Positions 3,227-26,953 of a stretch of 64,000 nt of DNA are shown piece by piece. Source of the DNA: Pholiota molesta (lineage: Eukaryota; Basidiomycota; Agaricomycetes; Agaricales; Strophariaceae). Made by a program: the position numbers and the translations under genes. Within the stretch, counting starts at the first letter, position 1. The number at the start of each line of letters is the position of its first letter. The DNA is taken from the NCBI GenBank assembly GCA_014925825.1, contig JACGCK010000014.1, positions 496,001 through 560,000 of the forward strand, written 5' to 3'. The notes beneath the pieces were generated by a model. The model did not search any database, was not told where the DNA came from, and was given only the letters and a program-made list of their open reading frames with translations.

Positions 3227-6200
3227 TCAGTCTAATTTAGTGGCAATGTAGCGCAAAGTCTCTTCGTCAAGAAAGCCATCGTTCAGAAGGGCAGCCATCA
3301 AAGTGTCCTTGGTGATAGCGGGGACAGCAGGCTCAGTGGGTGCCACTTGGTACTGTTCGCAAACAGTGTTGATGGCGTTGGCAATTCGCAAAGAAAGGGA
3401 GTCGAGAACACGCATGAGCTCTGCGTCGGTTGAATTATAATTGATGGGAGGAAGGAGGAGATTGGGATCAGAATAAAAAATGTGCGAATTGTCGACACTC
3501 CCTTCGAACTCAACATTCGATTGAGTGCTATTCTTGCGTTCGGGGAGAGGTTTGAACAAGCGTCTTGTAGAGAGGGCTTCGATTCGCAGGCAAAGCATTC
3601 CGAGCTCCTGTATCTGGGGCACGCTGAACTGGATCCGCGAAGCGGACGCTGTCGGGTCAACCGGGGCATCCTTTAAATCGTGACGTCCTTCCAAGCCAGA
3701 GGGATATATGATCGATAGAATTTCAGGCAATTCAATGCCCTTGAGCTTGACTTCGCCGACAGGAATGATCACAAGGCCTATATCGCGGATACCTTCGATG
3801 GCGTTGGGATTTTGGAGCTTCGAGTATTCGGTTTCTTCTTCGGTCTCCGAGACCCTTGCGTTGATCTCTCGGATGATATCATTGCTGCAGGATATTTGTC
3901 CACCCAGCGCATTGCTTTCGATACGAGCAGATCGATTGACCATTGGCCCAAAGTAATCCATTCGGTGGGTGATTAAATCTGGCTCACATAGAGGCATTCC
4001 ACTGTGAATTCCCATCCGAACGGAGAGGCCGCAGGCGATGAGACGCCCTTCGGGATCGTAGATAGGCTTTCCGTCCTCGCATTCGAGAATCTCCAGAGGC
4101 CAAGGCTCGTTGAGAAGCTGGACCTGCACTGTTAAGCACCACCATACCGCAGCAAGCGTAGTGGGGAAGGAGCACATGAAGGAATCTCCTTCAGTCTTCA
4201 CTTCGTACCCACCACATAATCGGAGCTGTCGCCGAAGAAGGGTGTTATGGAGTCGCATAGCAGTCGGCATACCGGGATTGGCTTCCCAAAGATGCGTAGA
4301 ATTTCGGATATCCGTGAAGACGAGCGTGACGTGGCCAGTAGGCGCAGGAATCTCGTAGTCGAGGAATTTGAAACCCGGGCGTTGATCTTCCGGCCTCCTC
4401 CTTCGATAGCTTTGGTCGAGAATGGGATCCAGCGTCGGCTGGCGTGAACGTGATGGTGTATTGAAAAGGTCCGCAACCCACACAACCATGATCATGACAC
4501 TGCCATCCGCCCCGTAACTGATGGCGAAGTCGCGCAGCTTTTGAGCAGCGAGCATAGGATCTGGCCGATCGGTTCTGATGACGCTACGGGCGATATCGAC
4601 AGCGGTTTGATAAGGCACAAAGTCCCAAAGGCCGGAGTTCGCAATTATGATAAATTCGTCCATGTCCGACAAGTCATAGATAAGAATATCCGGTCGAGCG
4701 TTGATGGCAGGGAATAGGTGATAGTAGCCAAAACTGCGCGATACTTTCGCCTCAGCATCGTCGTTAACCAGGCCAGACGGTGATATCGAGCCCTCAGCGC
4801 TTCGGATACGGATGGTTTCATTGCGGTCGAAGGGATCGTGTTTCCGGGATATTTCATGATATACACCTTGTCGCGAGCCTATCGCTAGAGCGTTACCGAC
4901 ATTCGCTGCATAAAGGGTTCTGTCGAAGAAATATACCGCGACGCAGGAGACACCCGTGCGCGAGTAGGCGCTTTCGATCGTGTGTGGCTTGTTTAGAGAT
5001 ACTTGCGAGTTCTTCCGTGTCGTCTGCAGAACCTCCCATAAATCCTGATTGAGTTTCAGGAAAGTCCACACTAGCGCTTTGGGTATGCCCTCCTTTCGCT
5101 GATGATGCGGAACGCCCTCTTTCTCCTGTTTGTTGTTGACTGCAGCAAGCTGGGTCTTGAAAACACTGACGAAGTTATCGTGCAGATATTTGGTCAGGCG
5201 ATTAGGACTCGCTCCTTGTGGAAGGTGTTTTGGGGGATGCGTCCGTCCAAACATGGCGAAGAGCGCTTCGTCTTGTCGACCATGAAACTCATGCACCAGA
5301 TCGACCATCGTCAACGTATCGTGTTTGCCCATGGAGTCCGCAATACCATAGCCCATGCCGCATACTGTTGAGAGCGACGTTCGCACGCGACGATCGATGT
5401 TCTCGTCAGGTATATCAACCGTTGCGTCTTGCGATGTATTGGTAATGGTGACGTCCATGAGGCCTAAGACCTTGAGTTGCTGTAGGCTGGTGAACCCAGA
5501 AAGCATCGGTGTGGTGGATACATGAGAGTGCTTGCCCGTCCGGACCGACGAAGGAGACGATTCAGCCTTGATCTGGAGACGCTTGTTTCCGGAGAGATTG
5601 AGATACTTGAGATTGGTGTTGAAATTCCTAAAAGGAAACATGGATCAACGGATAGAACGACGACGGAGGCAAAAGCCAAATACCAATTCCAGTCGAACTC
5701 CCAATTGTTGATATTGTACTTCAGGTAATTGCTCCCCACATCCAACACCGTCAAGTTCGCGACCTTGCCCAATTCCTGCGGTAGCGACACCAGCCGATTC
5801 CCATTCAAAAATATCGTCGCCAGCTTCGTCAGGCGAGGAAAGTCCTCGCTAGGGATGCTCGTCAGCTTATTGCCGCTGAGGTAGAGCTCCTCGAGGAGCG
5901 TCATGCTGCGGAAGAAATTCGGGGGCAAGTCTTGAATTTCGTTAAACGACATATTAAGGACTTTCAACTCCTTGAAAATCATGAGTGGCACCACAGAGTT
6001 GTCTGTTAGCAAATTTTCGCCGATGTAGAGCTTCTCCAGGGAGTGGACGAGCGCAGGCAGGCTCCGCACCGAGCTGATGGAGGCCACCGAGCCCTTCCGT
6101 GGTGGAGCGCCGGGCGCAGCCAGGCTACCATCGACGATATACATCTCCTTGGCAACGATTGGGGGCTCTGGCCAACTGCTCAAGAAGTTCGACGTCAGGT

Positions 6201-9200
6201 TAATTTTCGATAGCTTTGAACATTCCCATATCGTCTGCGGTAGCTCATTGAGGTTGTTATTATGGGCATCCAGGGTCGTGAGTTCCTGTAGGCGGCCAAT
6301 GGAATTGGGAAGATAGTCGAGTTTGTTGTCCGTGCATGACAGGTTTTCTAGCCACTTGAGATCGCCAAGACTGTCGGGTAGAGAGCGGAAGGAGTTGTGG
6401 TCGAGCTTGAGAACACGTAGGGAGGAGAGGTGGCTAACGGCCAGATCGTCGAGTGATGAAAGTTTGGCGCAGGAGAGATCGAGGGTGGTCAATGCGTACG
6501 GAGGTCTACCCATCGGACCCGGCGAGATAGTAAGCTGCGTGATATCGTTCTGCGATACAACGAGCGTCTTCAGTCGCGGGCCAAGCGAGAGATCGAGTGC
6601 ATGCACGGCGTTGTGGTCTGCGCTTAGCGTATGCAAGCTCGGCAAATTACATACCAGCGCCAGATCCGAGAACTGGTTTCGCCGGATGTCGAGGACTTGC
6701 AGCATGACGAGGTCGACGATCTGGTCTGGGAATTTCGACACCTGGTTGCCAACGAGGGTCAGGCGCTCGAGCGCTGTAAGGGCCCCAATTTGGTCGGGCA
6801 ACTCTGTAATCATGTTAAATGAAACATCGAGGTCGCGAAGAGTTGTGATCTGGGTGAGAACCTGGGGAAATGTGCGGAATTTATTATTGGAGATGTTGAG
6901 TGTCGTGAGGGTTTTGAGGCGAGCAAAATGCCATGGCAGGTTCTCTAAGCGATTGTTCTGTGCATGAATTGTGTAAAGCTGGGGAATAGGGTCGAGAATA
7001 GCATCTTCAAGGTCGCGAATAGAATTACAAGAGATATCCAGGCGATGCAGACTTGTTGAATGTCGTATGTTTTGCGGCACTTTCTTCATCGACATATAGG
7101 ACATACGAAGGTCACGCAGCACTGTACATGACTGGATGAAGTCGAGAGGGATTTCAATCATGGGATTACGGTCAAGCTTGAGGAAGACGATTTGGTCGGC
7201 GTTTTTGTACAATCCTAGCGGGATCACACGCAAACCTTGACCTGTTAAATCCACAACTTCGTAGCTGGAGAGATTAATTTGCTCTTCCTATAAAATGATG
7301 CTAATGATTAGTATCAGTCGAGGAAAAATGACAAACAATAACGTACGCCAGCCAGGAGTTGAGCTTTATAAACGAACTTCAATAAAATGTTGAGATTCTC
7401 TATTCCAAGCAAATGTTGGCCATCTTCGTAATCATAACCCGCCTGTTCCATACGAAGTTTAACGATGGCAGCCGGCCGTTCGTGTGGACCTAATATCCGT
7501 TCTATAGGCGATATTTTTTTTAGCAAACCCATAGCAGGAAAAATAAAATATCGAGTCACACCTCGACCCTGCTCCTTCAAATACAAATACACCCTCCCGT
7601 TCTTCGTCTGCGGCATCTTCTTACTTAGCTTGGCCGTAAGACTCGCCACCGTTATGTCCAAATCAATCGCAATAACATGATACGCAGAGTTCGGCGTATA
7701 CATCCGCATCCGGTACGTCGCACCCGGCGGGGGCTGGCTTCTCAGCCGCGACAGCGTCCCCGTCCCCAGTGCGCTCGACGACGCCATCGACGACAACGAC
7801 ACCGACCCCACATTCCGCGCGCGCCTGCGCGGGCGGTCCTCGGTCCGCGACTTCCCAGCGCCGTTGCTCAAAGGCCCCATCGTCGCGTTTCCGTCGTCGG
7901 AATCCGAGTTGTAGCCTTCTGACAGCTCCGGGATGGTGTAGTAGTCGCCCGTGCCTTTGTCCACCGCCCAGCTGTCAGGCGCGGCCCACGACGGGCTACC
8001 AGGGCCATCAGTTGGGCTGGTGGCCAACCCTTGGGCGTGGAGGAAGCCATGCGGCGGTGGGGGGTTAGGGTATTTTGGTAATGGTTTCCAAGGTTCGGGC
8101 GACGATATCATTCCTTTTCGTTTATCTTGGGGTGATGTTGTTGAGAAAGGATCGCTGAATTCGGTTTGAGGGAGGAAGTATTGGTGAGGGTAGGTGCTGT
8201 GATCGGAGTGGCTTTGCGCGGAATCGAACCCGCTGCTGGGTGAATTTGGATCGCGCATGCCGGCGAAGCCGTGGCTCGCTGATGACGAGGAGTAGAGCCC
8301 GCCGGCGGCGATGCTGAAGTCCACGATGCCTTCCAGCTGGTCTGGAGAGAAGTCGACGACACCCATTTTACTGGCGAGATCCAGACTATCTTGAGAAGCT
8401 ATCGACGCGTCTTTTGCGGGTGGAGGCGGCGGCATTTTGCTCCCCAACCTTTTCTTCCCTTTGTCCCGCTTCCCTTTCGAAGTAACGGAGGATGGTATTG
8501 AAACTATGGTTGGTGTCGAGCTATTGGAAGAGATACTGCTGAACAGAGGGTTCGGATATCGTTGCTGGGGGATAGGTGGTATCGGAGGCCGCAAAGACGG
8601 ATGAGATGGATGCTCAGAGTCCTCGGACTCTGATCGCAGGTGGGTTTTGCTCGGCCGTGATTTCAGCTTTGAGAAAAGGTTATACGACGATTTCGACTTG
8701 TGCATCTCGCCGGAATTGGTGGATGAGCCACTATAGAATAGCCCTCTGGAAGACTCGCTGTCATCAGCTGAACGGCGCTTGCGCTCTGGTACCGTAAGCG
8801 TAATCTGCGTCTCCGAGGAGCGTATGCTCGAGCCGCCGTTTGAGCGATACACGCTGCTCGAGCTGTTCTGCCGCAGTGACACCAGTGAAACAAGTGAATT
8901 CTTGGAGGGGAAACCAAAGCCGCGCGAAACCGATGATGGATTTTGAAGTGGGCCTATGGGATACTGCTTCGGAGGTGGTGTTGGCTGCAACAGTAGGTTA
9001 GCATGTCCAACGAGTTCCCCGACATGGTCGAAGGGAAACATCGGTTGATAGCTATGAAATCCTCACAGGTGGATCCTGCTCTATCCACGGCGCAATCGAT
9101 GCATCCTCCTTCGCTGGCGTGCCCCAGTCGACGTCCGCGAACCGAGCCTGCCCATTCTGATCTACAAGTTCATCCGAAAGCTGAAAGGCGGCCGATACCC

Positions 9201-25386: not shown

Positions 25387-26953
25387 ATGCCCAGGAATTC
25401 TGCATCTCTGGAAGTCCGTGTGAGCGGACTTGGACAGGCTGGAGAGGGTTGTTCTCAGCCTTCACCTTCAGTGTACATCATCCCAGACACACCTCCACTT
25501 CAGTCCCAATTTCCGCCGCCCAAGATTCGGGACTATGGCGATGTCGACGAACACACCTCTGATCATCTTCAACTTCCTTCACCGCATGAGAGATCTCATG
25601 CAGCACAATCTTCTAGCACCTTAAACGGCGGCCAAACAAACATCCTTGGGGCACTATCTATAGGCGTATGTCGTTAATTCAGCATTCAGTACTTGCGAAC
25701 TAACAGATATCCGACAACTACTATACAGGCTCCTCTGATCGCATCAGTCGTCTCATCATGCACCAGTGCCATCTGCGCTGATCTCACTGCCATTTTAGGC
25801 ACCGATCCCCTGAATAGGCCAGCGCGCGCTTCAGCTATAGTCGCACTGCTCTGGTGTGCATTAGTCACTGGGTGACATTCCACAACGATATCTTGAATTA
25901 TAATTCAAGTGTCACCTCAAGCGACGTCAATCGGAGTTCGAATCGCGAATATTTGGATTTCCCTGGATTTCCACAACGTTCACAATAGTTAATTTGAAGT
26001 CAATATCTTGAATCCAGTGAGGGAGATCGTTGAAAGGCCCTCTAGTCCCCCTCTCATGAGTTATATACTCCTTAAAATTAGGCAAAACACTATATTACAT
26101 GTAGGTGAGGCTCTAGATAAGGTAATACAATATAATCTCCAAGTCTGCAGAGCTCACACTTTGTCTGCTGCCTACAATCGGAGCACCAAGTGCGAAGCTT
26201 GGCAAGGGCACTCGATAATTATGCCGGGATGCCGCTCATCCAAGGCTAACGGAAAAGGAAAGAAAGGGTCCAATATGGCAACGGTTGACAGTTTTTGACA
26301 TTCAAATTTTTGGAAGGGGGGTCGAGAGGCCTCCTCCAAATTCGAGATTTAGACCTGTCAACTTGAAAGTCAGTTGACAGCTCGGAGGTTATGCCATCAG
26401 CGGCACCTCGGCGAAGGACCCTTGTTACCATGTATTTAGAGTTAGATATTCAAGTTAGCATTGTGGAATGTCACCCACTAGCCTCGGCGCGACGATGACC
26501 GCCGTAGCGGGGCTTGCTATGAGCGCCGGATACCATGATCACCATGTCGGGGTGACCAAGAAAATCATGCGATTTTTGCGTCAGTGGCATGCCAATCGTC
26601 GTCAATCTCGAGCTTCTTTCGCTGAAATGAGAGAGCATGAGATAAGGGTACCATCCCCTGCGCTAAGCGTTATAACGGACACGCACAAAAGCCAACATGC
26701 TATGGCGTCCTTCCGCGCTGCTGTTGTATCTGCTCGTGTATGTTCACATTCTTCTTAATTGACACAAAATGAACTGATAAAACTGCTTCAGCTGCTAGGA
26801 TTATCAGTTGCGCTGTTGGCAATAGCTTTGGCTCTGTATCTGTTCTTGCTCTACCCACTTTCCGTTGCAGTTTCCACGTTGGCCGTCGGTATTCTTACTG
26901 CTGCAACCGCAGCAGTCCCTCTCTTGCCAATTATATGGCCAGGTTCAAGCTGA
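25387..26953 (+). CDS. Small multi-pass membrane protein interrupted by a TIR element
   Basis: Four coding blocks: 25387-25665, 25729-25869, 26480-26737 and 26792-26953. Introns at 25666-25728 and 26738-26791 are GT-AG and in phase. The second and third blocks are one exon split by the 607-bp element plus one 3-bp duplicate; joined, all blocks give exactly 280 codons. The N-terminus is polar and Pro/Ser-rich. Hydrophobic stretches follow: ILGALSIGAPLIASVV, IVALLWCALVT joined to SLGATMTAVAGLAM, and a long C-terminal one (LLGLSVALLAIALALYLFLL onward). It resembles unnamed Agaricomycete four-TM proteins; the function is unknown. The element sits in the second hydrophobic segment, so unless it is spliced out the protein stops just after residue 140 (VTG then TGA). 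Confidence 0.65.
25870..26476. mobile_element. 607-bp TIR element (MITE-like), possibly spliced
   Basis: Left end GGGTGACATTCCACAA, right end its exact reverse complement, with weaker inverted similarity continuing for about 15 bp. Target duplication ACT flanks it (25867-25869 and 26477-26479). It has no transposase. Ends starting GGG and a 3-bp duplication resemble PIF/Harbinger-type MITEs, though ACT is not the usual TWA target. Its first 365 bp recur at 40266. A GT two bases inside the left end and an AG just past the right end (26480-26481) would allow it to be spliced in frame. Confidence 0.87.

Follow-up and report, generated by a model that had tools for sequence, protein, structure and literature searches.

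A Pangu-type MITE in exon 2 of a conserved membrane-protein gene of Pholiota molesta: probable loss of one allele at a site modelled as an intron

One apparent haplotype of the mushroom Pholiota molesta (Agaricales) carries a 607-bp non-autonomous transposon (MITE) in exon 2 of a membrane-protein gene that is conserved among Agaricomycetes, and our analysis suggests that this is probably an ordinary MITE whose recent insertion into the exon disables that haplotype's allele, with splicing of the element as a minority possibility. The locus suits a common question, namely whether a transposon that lands in an exon kills the gene or turns into an intron at once, and it illustrates how a transposon can be masked as an intron in a public gene model. 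The window, a stretch of 64,000 nucleotides to which all coordinates refer unless another contig is named, is part of contig C46 (660,119 bp) in an assembly of 65.6 Mb and 625 contigs.

The element, its host gene and the empty copy

The presence of the element at 25870-26476 is certain. Its left terminal inverted repeat (TIR) of 16 bp, GGGTGACATTCCACAA (25870-25885, plus strand), has a perfect counterpart in the right TIR (26461-26476, minus strand, 16 bp), which is the exact reverse complement, and the element is flanked by two copies of a target-site duplication (TSD), ACT, at 25867-25869 and 26477-26479. An earlier note, made from the letters of the window, had described these inverted ends and this duplication, and both proved exact on re-reading the sequence. 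The wider arms of the element (25869-25898 and 26448-26477) are 90% complementary across 30 nt. Reading the insertion as a DNA transposon, as the note did, is confirmed and accords with the TIRs, the ACT duplication, an exact empty site and the recurrence of near-full copies elsewhere in the genome. As judged from sequence comparison the insertion in exon 2 is recent, because the closest other copies are 99.0% and 97.7% identical to it.

The host gene encodes 279 aa (280 codons with the stop) and lies on the plus strand, with exon 1 at 25387-25665 (placed by translation and the deposited protein), an intron 1 of 63 nt at 25666-25728, an intron 2 of 54 nt at 26738-26791 (both from the gene model) and exon 3, running through the stop codon, at 26792-26953 (by translation). 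The translated parts of exon 2 on either side of the putative splice are 25729-25871, whose final two bases (GG) are derived from the element, and 26482-26737. Deleting the element with one ACT yields a 279-aa frame reading VTSLGAT at the join, and deleting 25872-26481 also yields a 279-aa frame, reading VTGLGAT. An uninterrupted empty copy of the gene is present on contig C206 (13452-14434), where one flank runs into the other through just one ACT and the gene codes, in an open frame, for an intact protein of 279 aa. The exon-2 position, the model of 280 codons with two other introns and the predicted single-ACT join, all put forward in the earlier note, are thus confirmed by the 279-aa frame and by the open empty copy. 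A protein search with the C206 product (21 proteins returned) gave as best match BJ912DRAFT_955664, a hypothetical protein of Pholiota molesta of 279 aa.

Premature stop or 610-nt intron

Our favoured reading is that a non-autonomous PHIS/Pangu transposon (3-bp ANT duplication, GG ends), served by transposase in trans, inserted recently into exon 2 of the conserved membrane-protein gene in one apparent Pholiota molesta haplotype. If the element is retained, translation runs through ACT GGG into an in-frame TGA within the left TIR (25873-25875, plus strand). We infer that most transcripts of the C46 allele would retain the element, read ACT GGG TGA and end after residue 141, and that the C46 allele would be mostly null, the intact allele providing the protein. 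The implied intron would probably be a gene-modelling program's detour round the insertion, and low-level true splicing is conceivable, at the cost of changing Ser141 to Gly. Inactivation of the allele by a recent insertion had been the earlier note's alternative to an intron, and it is the more likely option.

True splicing of the element, as a U2-type join of 25871 to 26482 that creates a new 610-nt intron and a Ser141Gly change, is unlikely in our judgement, though well short of negligible. The predicted intron (25872-26481, plus strand) would take its donor GG/GTGACA from the TIR (GT at 25872-25873) and its acceptor CACCCACTAG/ from exon bases just past the duplication (AG at 26480-26481; slashes mark the splice points). 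The deposited BJ912DRAFT_955664 equals, letter for letter, the product that had been predicted for this join, and the depositors' model may rest on transcripts; the identity is nevertheless no proof of splicing. Homology-guided gene prediction could yield such a model without any transcript.

The geometry of the join also speaks for splicing to some degree. Seven GT-AG pairs near the element (donors 25835-25879, acceptors 26300-26559) keep an open frame, and 25872/26481 is the only one among them that preserves the length of the protein. Insertions simulated in seven coding sequences, with ANT as the target, gave an in-frame join of the TIR donor to an AG no more than 12 nt past the site in 178 of 565 cases and an exactly length-preserving join in 14 of 571, so that the fit seen here is no more than mildly unexpected; within BJ912DRAFT_955664 alone an in-frame fit within 5 nt occurred at 20 of 38 sites. 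The exons 3' of the insertion on C46 are free of frameshift or stop, and this undamaged coding sequence would be in keeping with splicing, while the insertion may also be too young to show decay. Residues 174, 202 and 276, which lie 3' of the insertion and are clearly polarised by homologues, are changed on C206 and not on C46; at residues 107 and 118, 5' of the insertion, the homologues make a change on C46 more likely.

The splice signals themselves point the other way, and the reservation expressed earlier, that the donor was only fair and a good branch point wanting, holds. In a noisy test, GTGACA occurred upstream of branch and acceptor motifs 2 times against 4.0 expected (rank 206 of 256), a lack of enrichment in keeping with a poor donor. 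No CTRAY branch motif occurs in the last 110 nt before the acceptor, the sole yTnAy is 104 nt away from it and is followed sooner by other AGs, GTTAC, at 54 nt, likewise has other AGs nearer to it, and GTCAC is just 8 nt away; a fitting consensus branch point was not found near the acceptor. In the predicted RNA fold the ends of the element form a stem that holds the donor (z = -5.47, 20 shuffles); such a stem could bring the splice sites together, which would favour splicing, yet it would also bury the donor. The intron would be about ten times longer than introns 1 and 2 of the gene, which are at most 71 nt long on either contig, and would alter a residue that is Ser in all 14 aligned homologues.

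A precedent for such an intron is the maize Ds1 element (Dennis 1988; Wessler 1991; titles cited in PMC3260210). Like Ds1 in Adh1-Fm335, the Pholiota element would be a lone DNA-transposon insertion acting as an intron, but splicing of Ds1 is a stated result, going by title in PMC3260210, whereas in Pholiota it is implied by a deposited protein. The fuller proposition, that a newborn intron is present in one haplotype and absent from the other within a single mushroom strain, is slightly more doubtful than splicing as such. If it were true, the left TIR would have become the donor and the insertion site the acceptor, with length kept and one residue changed, which would make it the first case of a basidiomycete intron formed by a TIR/TSD element in the literature searched. 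Because the element-bearing and empty copies in this one assembly differ at 33 of 279 codons, they are far enough apart for allele-specific measurement of RNA.

Two apparent haplotypes

The favoured reading of an inactivated allele takes the C46 and C206 copies as alleles, and they are apparently two haplotypes of one dikaryon, since C206, compared with the window over all of its 51.3 kb, is collinear over 42.1 kb (14 pieces >400 bp) at a mean identity of 93.1%. With the element and one ACT omitted, the 33 codon differences between the gene copies comprise 19 silent and 14 changing ones; both ordinary introns vary in length (intron 1, 63 nt on C46 and 71 nt on C206; intron 2, 54 and 63 nt), and the exons are equal in length. 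Searches of the genome with each flank gave one other match among the matches listed; both of these matches are on C206, and their identities are 91% and 96%. It is very improbable that C206 is instead a paralogue, or the insertion junction an assembly error, with no real empty allele. A single assembly underlies the comparison and 93% identity is a high divergence between alleles, both of which leave some room for this; against it stand the collinearity, which is broken by indels alone, and the one other match per flank among those listed. A chimaeric junction is unlikely, as at least eight near-full copies of the element occur with matching duplications.

The empty state is ancestral, to judge by homologues, because residue 141 is Ser in 14 of the 14 proteins from other species that were aligned, Gly occurring in the deposited C46 protein. 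This alignment used 14 of the 20 homologues found besides the deposited protein; P0008 and P0017-P0021 were omitted.

Two further differences between C46 and C206 lie downstream in the window. A 1.64-kb insertion on C46 (28145-29782), missing from C206, is flanked by the 8-bp duplication CATTGTTC and has inverted repeats just within its ends, with 47-bp tandem repeats in the interior; going by the 8-bp duplication alone, it is perhaps a hAT-type element. About 4.7 kb on C46 (33518-38175) are mostly missing from C206 and bear 103-bp inverted repeats (95%) near both ends.

The element family and its other sites

The 607-bp family has at least eight near-full copies in the genome, with 93-100% identity, at 7 sites (the copies L006 and L008 share the same flanks on two contigs), and families related to it, whose ends (GGGTGACTTTCCATAAC and GGGTGACTTTCCGTAAG) deviate slightly, include short and longer copies; all counts from the genome DNA searches are lower bounds. 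ANT duplications match at all 28 distinct intact sites that have both ends and usable flanks (ACT at 9, AGT at 9, ATT at 6 and AAT at 4). Eight of the 28 sites were paired by requiring equal flanks, and no two-ended locus there failed the pairing; the N pattern was not required. Matching ANT duplications were also found at L008, L015 and C227, which were left out of the 28 for, respectively, sharing the flanks of L006 on another contig, having a left flank of 28 bp and holding a 10.9-kb element. Also left out were L017 (a single end), L026 (decayed, with unmatched flanks), the fragments L027-L028, 13 loci with one end or none (L049-L061) and 7 lone end matches with two mismatches.

Two long relatives have similar ends. 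The copy on C15 is 4681 bp long with an ACT duplication, and its ends align with those of the 607-bp element at 69% over 143 columns and 79% over 188; two adjoining frames match DDE_Tnp_4 at 3.3e-14 (above the cut-off) and 7e-4 (below it), and the opposite-strand frames gave no Pfam match. The copy on C511 (4362 bp, AGT duplication) has a layout like that of C15 by eye and matches the C15 transposase at 58% at the protein level. C333 holds a third, partial transposase match. Among the matches listed in the genome search, no long pair bore the TIR of the 607-bp family at one mismatch or fewer.

From its duplications, ends and long relatives, we assign the family to the non-autonomous transposons of the PHIS superfamily, Pangu type. 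The Pangu group of PHIS is described as having 5'-ANT-3' duplications and short TIRs starting with GG, and its members, reported from three basidiomycetes with a mean length of about 3.5 kb, as encoding a DDE transposase and a second ORF without known motif (PMC4482050, 2015). The Pholiota elements resemble these in their 3-bp ANT duplications (28/28 sites), in a 16-bp perfect TIR starting GGG, where a length of 11-40 bp and, usually, a start of AG or GG are expected, and in related, putatively autonomous copies (C15 and C511) with a DDE transposase and a second ORF. They differ from Pangu as described there (PMC4482050) in forming a 607-bp non-autonomous family and in having long relatives of 4.4-4.7 kb, as against the mean of about 3.5 kb.

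That the element multiplies by creating introns across the genome, as an introner family, is extremely improbable, although its anatomy would permit it (GG/GT at both ends, and the AGT duplication of 9 of the 28 sites would give a CAG/T acceptor): by a reading-frame test, which is blind to insertions in existing introns, none of the other 27 sites is demonstrable as an intron, and the introner-like transposon envisaged in the earlier note found no support there. Several similar copies serving as introns in different genes, the mark of an introner, were thus not seen by reading frame. Frames across the joined flanks of the 28 sites are shorter than random (median 73.5 aa, against 104 aa at 2000 random ANT sites in the window; p = 0.001), the opposite of a bias toward genes, and suggest, with one window as the control, that the insertions which have survived are those away from coding sequence. 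A test of codon usage in the flanks did not recover BJ912DRAFT_955664, its positive control, and its result was not used.

Five of the 28 sites have a joined frame of at least 130 aa, namely the element at 25870-26476 (L001), L047, L014, L004 and L048. L047 is likely to be coding, with matches to five TPR families (best 4.7e-5, below Pfam cut-offs). At this site (L047/L066, C555 329087-329818) a related 732-bp element has entered the final codons of a TPR-like gene and ends the frame by the TIR's own GGG TGA, substituting the last few residues; it was rejected as an intron, and this only other likely coding-exon insertion among the 28 truncates its gene, cutting off the end. L014 (joined frame of 203 aa) was rejected as a second exonic case, none of its 57 word-sharing candidates reaching E <= 0.001 and no Pfam match being found, and the frames of L004 (130 aa) and L048 (132 aa) had no Pfam match.

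Introner families number from 5 to more than 2,000 copies per genome, and the fungal introners described are from Pezizomycotina and are without TSDs and TIRs (Gozashti et al. 2022, PMC9860276). Like the TIR/TSD introners of that survey, the Pholiota element lies in an exon and would use one splice site of its own and one flanking, with length kept; unlike them (5 to >2,000 copies, PMC9860276), it is a single putative candidate in Pholiota molesta.

The window holds a second, decayed copy of the element (L026; 40266-40692), 92% identical over the first 360 bp and with unmatched flanks (ATT/AAC), and C206 carries different sequence there. The 10.9-kb element on C227 (28394-39295; L010/L036/L011) has TIRs of the superfamily and matching ATT duplications at its borders; it showed no match to the C15 transposase, and a minus-strand ORF within it, with no Pfam match, resembles TET/JBP-like dioxygenases by eye only. 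Elsewhere in the window, three long frames on the minus strand (3230-9062) contain RA-like, leucine-rich repeat, PP2C and adenylate/guanylate cyclase domains and, going by domain order, are what we take to be a fungal adenylate cyclase gene.
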